A stretch of 24,277 nt of DNA from positions 1 through 24,277 of the IMG/VR virus record IMGVR_UViG_3300046787_000178; one strand, given 5' to 3'. A program made the translations under genes and the position numbers. This DNA is from a virus. Below, piece after piece: positions 2,503-23,639 of the stretch (position 1 is the first letter of the stretch; each line of letters starts with the position of its first letter). The notes below the pieces were generated by a model. That model did not search any database, was not told the DNA's origin, and saw nothing but the letters and a program-made list of their open reading frames with translations.

Positions 2503-3015
2503 ATGTCAGATACGCTCTTACTCAACGCCGACGGCGCACCAGTTAGCTTTCTGCCACTTAGTACACTAACTTGGCAGGATGCGATCAAATACATGGTCTT
2601 AGATAAGGCCCACGTATTGGCTTGGCACGACAATTGGATCGTCCACAGTGCAAACTGGGAAACCGCTGTGCCAAGTATCCTAATTCTACGTGAATACATG
2701 AAGCCAAAGACAACCATTAGGTTCTCTAAGGGTAATGTATTCTTACGTGACAACTACACTTGCGCATACTGTGGTGACCACTTAGAAAAGAAACAATGTA
2801 CGTTAGACCACGTATTGCCTTCTAGTATGGGCGGTAAGACTACGTTTGAGAACACCGTAACCGCTTGCGGTCCTTGTAACGCTGGCAAAGGTAACAACAA
2901 GAAAATTGTTCCTAAGTTCAAGCCTCACAAGCCAGACTTCTACGAACTTGTTAACAAGCGTAAGCGTATGCCCTTTCAACTCCGTCATGAGGTGTGGCGT
3001 GACTACGTCACGTGA
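2503..3015 (+). CDS. HNH endonuclease
   Basis: A 170-residue protein. The C-terminal half is a classic zinc-type HNH domain: CAYC (Cys87, Cys90), L-D-H-V-L-P-S-S-M-G-G (Asp102-His103), the central Asn117 in F-E-N, and C-G-P-C-N (Cys122, Cys125) followed by K-G-N-N-K-K. The first 75 residues resemble the N-terminal part found in stand-alone bacterial/phage HNH proteins of this length. It may be a homing-type nuclease or act in DNA processing, and the sequence does not decide. Its stop overlaps the GTG start of the radical SAM gene. Confidence 0.88.
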   Translation: MSDTLLLNADGAPVSFLPLSTLTWQDAIKYMVLDKAHVLAWHDNWIVHSANWETAVPSILILREYMKPKTTIRFSKGNVFLRDNYTCAYCGDHLEKKQCTLDHVLPSSMGGKTTFENTVTACGPCNAGKGNNKKIVPKFKPHKPDFYELVNKRKRMPFQLRHEVWRDYVT

Positions 3016-3875
3016 CTCTAACTGTCGAGTGGAATGTAGGAAACGAATGTGATCTAAAATGTAGTTACTGTCACAAAGAACTACATGATGGAGCAAATCC
3101 GTTTCCCCCGGTAGACAAGTTTCGCCCGGCGTTTGATCACTTAATTGATCAGGCCCGGGCTTTCCCACGAATTAACATAGAATTTTCTGGTGGAGAGCCA
3201 ACTCAGAGCAATAGCTTACAAGATATAATCCTAACTAATAACGACACAAGGATTCGATTTAAAATACATTCTAATGCACAGGCTCCTATCGATTGGTGGC
3301 AATGGACTGCACATAAATTGTATGACTTAACGCTAAGTTATCATGCACATACTAGCTTCGATCATTTCCAGGAAGTTGTTAATATAACCAGCAACTACTT
3401 AAAGCCTAAAATATATATTCCACTAACTCCGGAAACATGGGCAGATCAAAAGACCTTGTATACTCAACTCAAGGCACTAGGTCATAATGTAAACCTGCAA
3501 CTATTGTATTCAAACTTCACACGAGGCAACGACTCATATCTTAAATACACAGAAGAACAGTGGGATGAATACTATACAGAGCAGGGCATTGACATAAACA
3601 ATACTGCTCAAGTAGAACAGACTATAGAGTTTAAACGTGTTAATCATTTAAACAATTATTATGGTCACATGTGCTGGGCCGGGTACAATCAAATTATTAT
3701 AGATAACTTTGGAGATGTCTATCGTGGTTGGTGTAAAGCCGGTAACTCACTGGGCAACGTGTTTAGACACGATGTGTTATTAGACAATCAACCTGCACCT
3801 TGTCCCAGGACACAGTGCAAAAATGGGTTTGATTTACAAGCTCATAAGAGCAAAGGAAGTTGGGGATTCGCATGA
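3012..3875 (+). CDS. radical SAM enzyme with C-terminal extra-cluster cysteines
   Basis: A 287-residue protein with the radical SAM CxxxCxxC motif (Cys13, Cys17, Cys20 in NECDLKCSYC) that binds a 4Fe-4S cluster, and the SAM-binding GGEP motif at residues 60-63. Four more cysteines near the C-terminus (221, 241, 264, 269) resemble a SPASM/twitch-type auxiliary iron-sulfur site. Radical SAM enzymes with such extensions often modify peptides or nucleotides; the substrate here is unknown. The start is GTG at 3012, overlapping the HNH stop (GTGA), and the stop overlaps the next ATG (ATGA), so the three genes form one translational unit. Confidence 0.87.
   Translation: MTLTVEWNVGNECDLKCSYCHKELHDGANPFPPVDKFRPAFDHLIDQARAFPRINIEFSGGEPTQSNSLQDIILTNNDTRIRFKIHSNAQAPIDWWQWTAHKLYDLTLSYHAHTSFDHFQEVVNITSNYLKPKIYIPLTPETWADQKTLYTQLKALGHNVNLQLLYSNFTRGNDSYLKYTEEQWDEYYTEQGIDINNTAQVEQTIEFKRVNHLNNYYGHMCWAGYNQIIIDNFGDVYRGWCKAGNSLGNVFRHDVLLDNQPAPCPRTQCKNGFDLQAHKSKGSWGFA

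Positions 3876-4652: not shown

Positions 4653-4656
<4 letters not shown>
4324..4656 (+). CDS. tail-fibre-associated beta-rich protein (connector/BppU-N-like)
   Basis: A 110-residue beta-rich protein. It begins with [12 protein letters not shown] and continues [13 protein letters not shown], ending in a [12 protein letters not shown] strand pair. This layout resembles small phage proteins encoded just upstream of tail fibres, such as the N-terminal domain of BppU-type baseplate upper proteins. Assignment is by pattern and location only. Its stop overlaps the fibre start (ATGA), and it is the first gene of the fibre operon. Confidence 0.5.
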
Positions 4657-7748
<3,092 letters not shown>

Positions 7749-9822: not shown

Positions 9823-10055
9823 TGAGCAACGTATTACATGAAGTTATCAACAGTGGACAACCTTGGGCAGCTGAACGTGCTCAATACGCTCTGCAAGTAG
9901 CAGAAGCAATCCAGACTGGACAAATAAGTCCTGACGAAGCAAAAGCTATTCTAGAAGATTTAATAGCAACAGAAAAGCTCGAAGCTGAAGGAGCTGACCT
10001 CCAACTACGAGCTGCATTAGTGTTCGGTGTTACACAAGTAATTAGTATGTGTTAA
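9822..10055 (+). CDS. small helical phage protein
   Basis: 77 residues, nearly all predicted helix: [17 protein letters not shown], then [13 protein letters not shown], which resembles EF-hand-like or helix-turn-helix packing without calcium ligands, and a hydrophobic tail. Coupled to the lipoprotein by a TAATG overlap with Shine-Dalgarno GGGAG. Its last 14 bases overlap the converging aminolevulinate synthase gene, with no terminator between them. Function unknown. Confidence 0.65.
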
Positions 10056-11238
10056 ACACTGTTTGAAGAGCTTGTATTAAGTCTTCAATCATCCCATCAT
10101 CATGTAACGGAGTAGGTGCAAATCGCAGCCGCTCCGTTCCCACATCTACTGTAGGATAGTTGATTGCCTGTACATATATGTTATAGTCATTTAATAACGC
10201 ATCACTCATGGCCTTAGCACGTTTAGCATCGCCTACTAGTACAGGTACAATATGTGTAGTGCTATCCATTACCGGTAGTCCTGCCTTTTGCAAACGATAT
10301 TTTAATTTACGAGCACGATCCTGATGTTGCTCGCGAAGCTCAGGATGTGCTTTGAGATACTTAACAGCAGCCAATGCACCTGCACAAGTAACAGGACTCA
10401 TTGACGTAGTAAAAATAAAACCTGCGGCAATGCTACGGATAGCATCAATCACAACTGCATCGGCAGCAATATAGCCACCTTGGACTCCGTACGCCTTGCC
10501 CAGGGTTCCGTTGATTATATCAATCCTGTCTTGTAAGCCGTATTTTTCTGACTTACCACCGCCTGTGTCACCGTATAGTCCTACCGCATGTACCTCGTCC
10601 AAGTAGGTCATTGCACCGTACTTGTCCGCAAGGTCGCAGATCTCTTTCATTAAACTAACATCGCCGTCCATACTGTACACACTTTCAAATACAATGCATG
10701 GTGTCTTCTTGCACAATACAGCCGCTTGCAAACAATTTTCTAACTCAACTAAGTTATTGTGTTCAAAAATTTGTTTGTTGGCCTTACTATGATTTATACC
10801 AACAATTAAACTATTATGATTCTTGCTGTCGCTAATGAACTCAATATTAGGAATGATCTTAGCAAGTGCAATCAAAGTCCACTCGTTGGCTACATAGGCA
10901 CTGCTAAACAATAGAGAACGTTCTTTCTTGTGTAGTGTTGCTAGCTCATGCTCTAGGGCAACGTGATAGTGACTAGTGCCTGCAATGTTGCGTGTACCAC
11001 CAGATCCTGCACCTGTATGATCAAGGGCTGTATGCATAGCGTCAAGCACAACTTTGTGCTGCCCCATGCCTAAATAATCGTTGCTACACCAGTTAGTAAT
11101 GCTTTTGATGTTGTAAGGGCCGTACCACATAGCTTGCGGAAACTTACCATTTTCACGTAATATATCGTTAAACACACGATATTTGCCGTTGGCTTTTAAA
11201 TCTGTAATTAAATGCTGGAAGGGTTCTTTGTTTATCAT
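10042..11238 (-). CDS. hemA: 5-aminolevulinate synthase (PLP, Shemin pathway)
   Basis: 398 residues, full length for ALAS, which condenses glycine with succinyl-CoA to 5-aminolevulinate, the first step of haem and chlorophyll synthesis in alphaproteobacteria. Alpha-oxoamine synthase motifs are clear: Y-R-V-F and G-K-F-P-Q-A near the start, [10 protein letters not shown] (50-59), [13 protein letters not shown] (76-88) and [10 protein letters not shown] (214-223). [14 protein letters not shown] follows, with the PLP lysine at 248. The A-Y-G-V-Q-G-G-Y form separates ALAS from AONS and KBL. No broken motif is seen, so the enzyme is probably active. A GTTAAATA motif lies 7 bases before the ATG with no Shine-Dalgarno, suggesting a nearly leaderless message. 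It is the only minus-strand gene in this part. Confidence 0.95.
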
Positions 11239-21698: not shown

Positions 21699-22595
21699 AT
21701 GCAGATTAAAGAACTTTCACATCCAAAGAGCAGCAAAGCACTCAACGAGAGCGTAGCTAAGAAATTTGGATATAAATTAAACGTAGACAGTTTCACAATG
21801 GAACAACTACAAGCAGCACGTGACAAGATCACTTTTGAACTTGCTGAATTCGAAACAAGCAGAAACTATGATGCTGTATTCGAAAGCAACGCTTACCAGC
21901 GTGACCGTGCATTACTTGATGTAATCACACAGGCAATTTCAGAGCGCACACTTTCTCCAGGCGAAGAAAAGAAGAAAGAAAAATATGTAAAAGGCATGAA
22001 GTCAAAGTCAGGCGAATTTAAAAAGCGTTATGGCGAAAAAGGCGAAGAAGTTATGCATGCCACAGCTACTAAGATGGCTAAGAAAGAAAGCATTGAAGAA
22101 GCAATGCAAGTTCTACGTGGTGTTCTAGCAGAACGAGTTCTTACTGAAGGCGAAGAAGAAAAAGCAGCGTTGATCATGAGCGCTCGTGATATGGTTGACA
22201 AAGTCACTGGATGGCTGGAAGATACTGCATCATTAAAATCAGAAACCATGTTAGAATTAGTGGACTCTATAAGAGACGAATTAGGCTCAGACATTAGCAA
22301 CCAGTTCTCTGGTAAAGTTAAGCCAGCTCTAGAAGAAGTATATAACACATTAGAAACTGCACGTACTACACTAGCACAAGCAGTAGCTATCTTAACAGGT
22401 GAAGAAGCTCCAGGAATGGGTGCAGAAGCTCCACCAGAAATGGGTATGCCAGGCGAAGAAGAATTCCCAACAGGCGACGAGTTTGCAGCAAGTGAAGCAG
22501 GCGCAGGTGGCGAAGAAGAAGCAGGCCGTGCAATGCGTGAAAGTATTGCATACAGCCGCAAGCTAGGCACTATCTTAAGTTCAAAAAAAAAGTAA
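21699..22595 (+). CDS. acidic helical phage protein, possibly prohead core/scaffold; zero-frame product
   Basis: 298 residues, highly charged and mainly helical. The middle contains S-P-G-E-E-K-K-K-E-K-Y-V-K-G-M-K, then F-K-K-R-Y-G-E-K-G-E-E-V-M-H-A-T-A-T-K-M-A-K-K, a stretch common in small phage proteins. A long acidic section and a flexible Gly/Glu/Ala/Pro/Met-rich linker (about 250-280) follow. The end R-E-S-I-A-Y-S-R-K-L is followed by a Lys run encoded on A9. An L-N-E|S site at residues 15-18 resembles prohead-protease cleavage sites. The properties fit a scaffold or core protein, which is inference. The zero frame ends on TAA directly after the slippery site. Confidence 0.7.
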   Translation: MQIKELSHPKSSKALNESVAKKFGYKLNVDSFTMEQLQAARDKITFELAEFETSRNYDAVFESNAYQRDRALLDVITQAISERTLSPGEEKKKEKYVKGMKSKSGEFKKRYGEKGEEVMHATATKMAKKESIEEAMQVLRGVLAERVLTEGEEEKAALIMSARDMVDKVTGWLEDTASLKSETMLELVDSIRDELGSDISNQFSGKVKPALEEVYNTLETARTTLAQAVAILTGEEAPGMGAEAPPEMGMPGEEEFPTGDEFAASEAGAGGEEEAGRAMRESIAYSRKLGTILSSKKK

Positions 22596-22627
22596 ATGAA
22601 GGTGCGGATAATTTAATCCGCATCCTT
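22583..22627 (+). other. -1 programmed ribosomal frameshift signal
   Basis: Nine A followed by G give the heptamer A-AAA-AAG in frame (22586-22592), the slippery sequence of E. coli dnaX, with TAA immediately after it. Six bases later (22599) a stem-loop begins. AAGG/CCTT and TGCGGAT/ATCCGCA pair across a six-base loop with one bulged T. The -1 frame is open from here to 22915. Confidence 0.75.
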
Positions 22628-22915
22628 TCACACTTAAAAAACAAAGCAGAGCGCACCGGCGGTGGCCAATATAGTTGGGAAGCAGTTTCCAACTTGTTGC
22701 AAAACATGTCCGGTTCCGAAATGGATTACGAAACATTCAAAGCAGAATACGATTCGATTCCACAGCTAAAAAATATTGTACAACAGTTTGATTCACGAGG
22801 TGTTACTTTGGTTAAACCTAAAGAACCAGAAGCAACTCGTTCGGATAAAAACACAGCAGGGTTAGATGCAGCAGCGTCTAGAGCGGCAGCTAAATCGCTC
22901 AAACAGCCTGGATGA
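22592..22915 (+). CDS. -1 frame extension of the 21699 gene
   Basis: In the -1 frame, 107 residues follow the slippery site, giving a 405-residue fusion. The extension starts V-N-E-G-A-D-N-L-I-R-I-L-S-H-L-K, continues Q-Y-S-W-E-A-V-S-N-L-L-Q-N-M and D-Y-E-T-F-K-A-E-Y-D-S-I-P-Q-L-K-N-I-V, and ends in an Ala/Lys-rich tail. The helix before the first internal ATG (22694) belongs to the same fold, so starting there would cut the domain. No Shine-Dalgarno precedes that ATG. Expression as a minor fusion product is therefore the best reading. An A9 assembly error is the alternative. Confidence 0.65.
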   Translation, partial: VNEGADNLIRILSHLKNKAERTGGGQYSWEAVSNLLQNMSGSEMDYETFKAEYDSIPQLKNIVQQFDSRGVTLVKPKEPEATRSDKNTAGLDAAASRAAAKSLKQPG

Positions 22916-22952: not shown

Positions 22953-23639
22953 ATGACCCTTTTAATTGAAAAATATACCTATAGCAAGCTAACTAGAGAC
23001 GAAAGCACCGGCAAACGCTTGTATGCTACTCCTACCGGACACAAAGTTCCGTCAGTAACAACAATCCTAGACAAAACAAAACCTGCAGAAACTCGCATTG
23101 CACTAGCTAATTGGCGCAAAGCAGTCGGCGAGAAAAAAGCGCAGGAAATTACAACCGAAGCAGCCAATCGTGGTACTAGGATGCACAAGTATCTTGAAGA
23201 CTACGTTACACAAGGTTTCTTATCTCCTCCCGGTTCTAACCCATTTAGTCAGCAAAGCCATAAGATGGCAGAATGTATTATTGAAAAGGGGTTTGGGGCG
23301 GTATCTGAAGTTTGGGGTAACGAAGTACCCTTGTACTTTCCAGAACTATATGCGGGAACTACTGATTGCGTTGGCGTACACAACGGCGAACAGAGTATTC
23401 TAGATTACAAGCAAACTAACAAACCTAAGAAAATAGAGTATATTGACGATTATTTTATACAGCTAACAGCCTATGCGCTAGCACATAACGAAGTACACGG
23501 AACTAATATACGCAAAGGTGTTATTTTAATGTGTAGCAAGGACTTCGAATATCAAGAGTTTATCCTAGAACCCAAGGACTTTGACTACTGGACAGAGCGT
23601 TGGTGTAAGCGGGTGGAAGAATACTACCGCATGAACTGA
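22953..23639 (+). CDS. PD-(D/E)XK nuclease, Cas4/RecB-type exonuclease
   Basis: 228 residues. The nuclease core is clear: E-A-A-N-R-G-T-R-M-H (motif I helix), G-T-T-D-C-V-G (catalytic Asp), I-L-D-Y-K-Q-T-N (D-x-K motif) and Q-L-T-A-Y-A-L-A-H (the Q-x3-Y motif of RecB/Cas4). Such phage enzymes act in DNA repair, recombination or host-DNA breakdown. The start is ATG 22953: upstream reading hits a TAA in frame, and the next Met is past the catalytic helix. A sigma70-like promoter precedes it directly, so it may be an early or middle gene unlike its late-type neighbours. Confidence 0.88.
   Translation: MTLLIEKYTYSKLTRDESTGKRLYATPTGHKVPSVTTILDKTKPAETRIALANWRKAVGEKKAQEITTEAANRGTRMHKYLEDYVTQGFLSPPGSNPFSQQSHKMAECIIEKGFGAVSEVWGNEVPLYFPELYAGTTDCVGVHNGEQSILDYKQTNKPKKIEYIDDYFIQLTAYALAHNEVHGTNIRKGVILMCSKDFEYQEFILEPKDFDYWTERWCKRVEEYYRMN

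Follow-up and report, generated by a model that had tools for sequence, protein, structure and literature searches.

We analyzed a window of 24,277 bases, the whole stretch of DNA given here, from an IMG/VR virus record. On its plus strand, an open reading frame of 298 codons (21699-22595) ends with TCA AAA AAA AAG TAA. Nine A residues at 22583-22591 are followed by G at 22592 and by the frame-0 stop TAA at 22593-22595, and the slip site, AAAAAAAAAG (22583-22592, plus strand), holds the heptamer A_AAA_AAG in frame at 22586-22592, with an extra AAA codon kept upstream of it. The -1 frame opens at 22541, after a TGA at 22538-22540. Past the slip point it runs for 107 sense codons, from 22592 to 22912, to a TGA at 22913-22915, and its first start codon is a TTG at 22694, 34 codons past the slip site. 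A first-pass annotation had proposed that a -1 frameshift here extends a protein from 298 to 405 residues; the heptamer in the correct frame, the TAA directly after it and the 107 open codons were all as described there, no start codon precedes the TTG, and the predicted fusion is 405 aa long. We refer to the frame-0 protein (298 aa) as N and to the domain read in the -1 frame (107 aa, 22592-22915, plus strand) as C.

A candidate 3' stimulatory stem-loop follows the slip site at 22598-22628 (plus strand). The earlier description of a stem-loop with one bulge stands, but its extent is revised from 11 pairs at 22599-22627 behind a six-base spacer to 12 pairs beginning 5 nt past the heptamer. The folding energy is -15.8 kcal/mol, with a z-score of -5.3 against 200 dinucleotide shuffles. 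No upstream Shine-Dalgarno-like stimulator is apparent in the sequence leading up to the A run, and an Rfam search of the region matched no frameshift element.

N is a homologue of the virion protein CBB gp298 (GAP32_293) and matches phrog_14154, "virion structural protein", with an E value of 1.7e-8. Pfam and NCBIfam had no family over cut-off for either N or C, and a PDB sequence search gave chance-level matches only. The first-pass label of an acidic core or scaffold protein is plausible for N, and the retention of its homologue in CBB virions, described below, bears on that label. The neighbours of the N gene are a fibre-like gene and a PD-(D/E)XK exonuclease (22953-23639, plus strand; phrog_298, E 9e-55), which is 49% identical to that of GAP32 and serves as a downstream synteny anchor common to RaK2, GAP32 and CBB.

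Conservation of the frameshift signal

Relatives were gathered in five scans of IMG/VR and two scans with C-domain alignments; the C-domain alignment A1 was too divergent for the contig scan, and two narrower alignments were used. Hundreds of relatives were among the matches listed, and both domains were located in them with profiles of each, whereas the genome contigs that were scanned yielded no relatives. The group carrying the frameshift consists of uncultured aquatic phages with freshwater and marine members. At least 206 distinct haplotypes among the matches listed have both domains, and the counts that follow are not frequencies, sampling having followed similarity and the haplotypes being related. 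In 184 of the 206 listed, an in-frame A_AAA_AA(G/A/C) heptamer is present and C is encoded in the -1 frame, while in the other 22 N and C are two separate genes with no slip heptamer. None of the 206 joins both domains in one continuous frame, the arrangement that a different length of the A run could have produced. Homologues with a proper start for C, which the first-pass annotation had taken as counting against a frameshift, thus do exist, but they have lost the slip site and so support it. In L056-L064 and comparable marine loci, alignment to the query starts no earlier than residue 145, at the conserved N core, and so these loci may lack the first half of N or have something else in its place.

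All of 116 representatives have an in-frame slippery heptamer at the end of the N open reading frame, and since such heptamers are rare elsewhere in the same family of reading frames (29 per 35,789 codons), this placement is not due to chance. The frame-0 stop lies 0 or 3 nt past the heptamer in 105 of the 116. The length of the run varies (A6G, A8G, A9, A9G, A9C and A10), with the in-frame heptamer kept throughout. Median dN/dS over 108 pairs is 0.12 for the region past the slip when it is read in the -1 frame, whereas the other two frames give 1.38 and 2.14; this evidence of purifying selection indicates that the region evolves as protein. Third positions account for 60% of the differences, and residue conservation in C begins immediately past the slip.

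Homopolymer runs are prone to error, and the A run could be an assembly or sequencing error in a gene that truly occupies one frame. The same run, however, is found in independent assemblies of other samples, both in many distinct haplotypes and in the nearest relative among the matches listed (L002), which is 97% identical, comes from a different sample and has the same A9. With these assemblies, the lack of any single-frame haplotype and the covariation of the stem, the comparative data rule out an assembly error, and the chance that the run is an error of either sort is very small.

In 24 freshwater relatives the 8-pair core of the stem is paired in 99.5% of cells, and 4 pairs are compensated on both sides; when the partner strand was slid by 1-3 columns as a control, pairing fell to 22-46%. 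In 117 representatives less than 85% identical to each other, the 60 nt past the slip have a mean folding z-score of -2.06, with 46% below -2, compared with means of -0.24 to 0.02 and 3-12% below -2 in control windows. Other clades have unrelated strong stems at the same place, such as a 17-pair stem in L135, and a clear stem is absent from many marine members. Conservation of the heptamer and of the -1 frame, dN/dS and covariation all agree in supporting the original proposal that a 3' stem-loop accompanies a -1 frameshift at A_AAA_AAG and that the second domain is real. From these sequence comparisons we are close to certain that the frameshift is conserved and functional.

The slip itself could be made by the ribosome or by RNA polymerase. 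In the latter case the polymerase would add one A at the A9 run, and the A10 mRNA would be translated normally to give N-C. Runs of nine A are slippage-prone for RNA polymerase in many bacteria, Thermus dnaX uses an A9 run (PMC1088944), and an A9 or A10 run is present in 180 of the 184 frameshifting haplotypes listed. Natural members with A6G (L264) or A8G (L053 and L267) argue against the polymerase, as does the 3' stem, which covaries and is at ribosomal spacing. There is also a strong preference for G after the run, though A10 would suit the polymerase better: among 110 AAR cases, 97 have AAG as the third codon of the slip site, although AAG makes up 31% of the Lys codons of these genes. 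In E. coli, A_AAA_AAG ranks among the most slippery of heptamers (PMC4066793). We consider transcriptional slippage quite improbable, and the slip is likely to be ribosomal.

Alternatively, C could be made alone, by re-initiation or from an internal start and with no fusion. An ATG follows the slip site by one codon (TAATG) in roughly one in ten frameshifting haplotypes, and the 22 listed haplotypes with separate genes clearly use a start of their own for C. In the window, however, 34 codons of the domain pass before the first start codon, the conserved residues of C start directly past the slip, and 92 of the 116 representatives have no -1 frame start codon near the junction (24 do), a Shine-Dalgarno-like site being found in one only. 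We hold it very unlikely that C is made only in this way. The overlap of ATG with the frame-0 stop was seen, for example, at position 4906 of L113 (from the same record as L021), one codon past the slip, and in this subset coupled re-initiation could add free C. As the -1 part mostly lacks a start codon, a conserved virion domain can escape annotation in these phages.

The C domain and its cultured relatives

Searches of cultured phages by tblastn with N or C gave no match at thresholds of 1e-5 to 1e-2. Cultured relatives came up only when the C-terminal half of N served as the tblastn query and E values up to 10 were allowed, and they were confirmed by profile and synteny; the N profile (A2) matched eight cultured RaK2-type proteins with E values of 1e-8 to 1e-13. 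These phages are jumbo phages of the RaK2/GAP32/CBB type (Mimasvirus, Alcyoneusvirus and Eneladusvirus), which have the same gene order as the window: N, C, exonuclease. In CBB the three genes are gp298, gp299 and the exonuclease gp300; N is homologous, and C has the same size, position and C-terminal pattern as in the window. They differ from the window in that N and C are separate genes with their own starts and no slip site, the C protein beginning with a sequence like MRFSQITED. Mass spectrometry of purified CBB virions detected 10 unique peptides of CBB_298 and 2 of CBB_299 (PMC5259590).

C is assigned by position as the homologue of CBB gp299 and GAP32_294. Six C genes of the RaK2 type ranked top among 277 open reading frames, at only 9.5-13.6 bits (best E 9e-4), and a profile-profile comparison with the cultured C (hhalign) gave a probability of 16%. 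As this sequence match is weak, the identity of C rests on synteny, length and C-terminal pattern too. An AlphaFold2 model of C has a pLDDT of about 85 over residues 1-70. The predicted fold consists of a helix, a strand, two or three helices and a two-stranded wing, followed by a disordered tail. The best structural matches are many winged-helix domains with modest scores (Foldseek E 0.03, VIA Z 6.8). C is thus modeled as small and winged-helix-like, ending in a disordered tail, and DNA binding by it would be a guess.

Where C has its own gene in the environmental haplotypes, the protein starts with sequences like MRVSEILKE, MRLFEF or MKLFDLVKE. All 20 distinct examples of separate C genes that were compared, environmental and cultured, fit the lenient start pattern M[RKL]xx[ED][FLIV]; of the 34 remaining coding sequences in three cultured loci, 1 fits it. 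A clear [VIL]xE is missing near the start of three deep separate C genes (L074, L428 and L429). A tree built on few columns of the N core, with some long branches, places separate genes in the outgroups and gives the frameshift clade one origin, with reversion at least 2 times. L418, which is not on the tree, looks like a further reversion to separate genes. L156, counted among the 184, has at the end of its frame-0 reading frame (4925-4990) both an A6G heptamer and an own C start, MLVSDILLKE, and is possibly a transitional state.

Possible role of the fusion in the phage head

The first residues past the slip in the -1 frame are VNE (22592-22600, plus strand), a [VIL]xE motif and candidate prohead-protease site. 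Such a motif occurs within the first ten positions past the slip in 111 of the 116 representatives; it occurs in 1.7% of control windows and, after shuffling, in 28 of 116. Its spacing to the first helix varies. It resembles the site of T4-type prohead proteases; the motif is short, and cleavage there is something we infer. N has similar motifs. The capsid-targeting-like N-terminus MQIKELSHPKSSKALNE ends in LNE (residues 15-17, 21741-21749, plus strand), and LN[ED] is close to the N-terminus in 113 of the 117 representatives. A second motif, LTE (residues 148-150, 22140-22148, plus strand), directly precedes the conserved N core (GEEEKA...); E150 and G151 are invariant in 27 sequences, and RaK2-type homologues have LNE, LTE, LQE or INE at the same place before the core. 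Judging by motif, N may be cleaved at both LNE and LTE.

Internal proteins of phage T4 reach the prohead by means of capsid-targeting sequences that are removed by gp21, and proteases of the T4 and phiKZ types cut after glutamate (PMC5694885, PMC9958956). The window is a fragment, and a 364-kb record carrying the frameshift encodes a gp21-type protease (PF03420, E 1.3e-25) and a gp23-type capsid protein. The phages studied here resemble T4 in their short starts like M[KR]xx[ED]F, in their [VIL]xE sites and in this protease, with the difference that targeting of C would come from a fusion partner and not from a peptide of its own.

On balance we read the signal as a real and conserved -1 frameshift, in all likelihood ribosomal, by which C, a winged-helix-like head protein, is fused to its neighbour. 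In the mechanism that we propose, ribosomes on the N gene would move back by one base at A_AAA_AAG, immediately ahead of the TAA, aided in this clade by the stem-loop about 5 nt downstream. Most ribosomes should stop and give N (298 aa), and a fraction would go on to give N-C (405 aa). The fusion would replace the capsid-targeting-like peptide of C, N would ferry a set fraction of C into the prohead, and a protease of the T4 gp21 type could then free C at the [VIL]xE just past the slip point, so that the slip rate would set the number of C copies packaged. Taken whole, a ribosomal -1 frameshift by which N carries C into the prohead for release at [VIL]xE seems to us a reasonably probable account. 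Its delivery part, with the frameshift as a substitute for a capsid-targeting signal and protease release afterward, is put forward more tentatively, as is the accompanying idea that phages switch in evolution between an own targeting peptide and the frameshift fusion. If it is correct, the natural swap between slip site and targeting-like start would give the frameshift a concrete role in head assembly, the dosing of an internal protein by recoding.

N-C could instead be a minor structural isoform, like T7 10B or the capsid proteins with Ig extensions, that stays uncleaved in the particle, with [VIL]xE only part of a linker or helix cap. C-terminal extensions of virion proteins by frameshifting are known in T3/T7, A2, A118, A500 and PSA (PMC5009743). 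This alternative fits less well with the retention of the motif in so many representatives at varying distances from the first helix, with C being an independent virion protein in relatives, and with the targeting-like start that separate C genes acquire; we judge it rather unlikely. The 10A/10B proteins of T7/T3 and those of Lactobacillus phage A2 and the Listeria phages are like the proposed N-C in being minor, C-terminally extended virion proteins made by frameshifting. They differ in that the extension here is a winged-helix-like domain, elsewhere an independent virion protein, with a conserved protease-like motif at the junction.

Two other known systems are close to the cassette or to its use. 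The E. coli dnaX and IS3-family cassettes have the same heptamer, in the same in-frame position, and a stem about 5 nt downstream. The window differs in having no upstream Shine-Dalgarno-like stimulator, which is present in some members of that group and is not obligatory, and in its product, a phage virion-type protein extended at the C-terminus and not a truncation or a transposase. In lambda, a -1 frameshift likewise sets the ratio of short gpG to long gpGT, a further well-known frameshifted phage protein (PMC5009743), and the first-pass annotation had drawn this parallel with tail chaperones. The parallel was not borne out, since both domains are virion proteins in CBB (PMC5259590) and since neither the window nor the relative L113 shows a tape-measure or tail-tube gene next to N. 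Our search of open-access journal papers on frameshifting together with such jumbo phages, capsid targeting or marine myoviruses found no account of this signal, widely conserved as it is in uncultured phages.

Nine plus-strand genes of the window, beginning at 191, 454, 8659, 11280, 16321, 16872, 20350, 21041 and 21699, start with M[RKQ]x(1-3)[ED][FLIV]. The shared starts, for example MRFSEF, MRASEF, MRANEF and MKINEL..., are like T4 capsid-targeting sequences, and by this motif they suggest that many internal proteins may be packaged. One of these genes (454-1899) encodes a protein with a peptidoglycan-binding domain.

Three further genes of the window may be mentioned. A 5-aminolevulinate synthase (TIGR01821, 584 bits) is encoded at 10042-11238 on the minus strand, against the surrounding plus-strand genes; phage-borne AlaS has been described already (PMC11480375). 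The plus strand encodes, at 4653-7748, a collagen-like tail fibre of 1031 aa that contains long GPxG repeats as well as a region in which AIGxxAG recurs. At 3012-3875, also on the plus strand, is a Radical-SAM-like gene with a GTG start and weak matches to maturase and viperin models, and it adjoins an HNH-like open reading frame.
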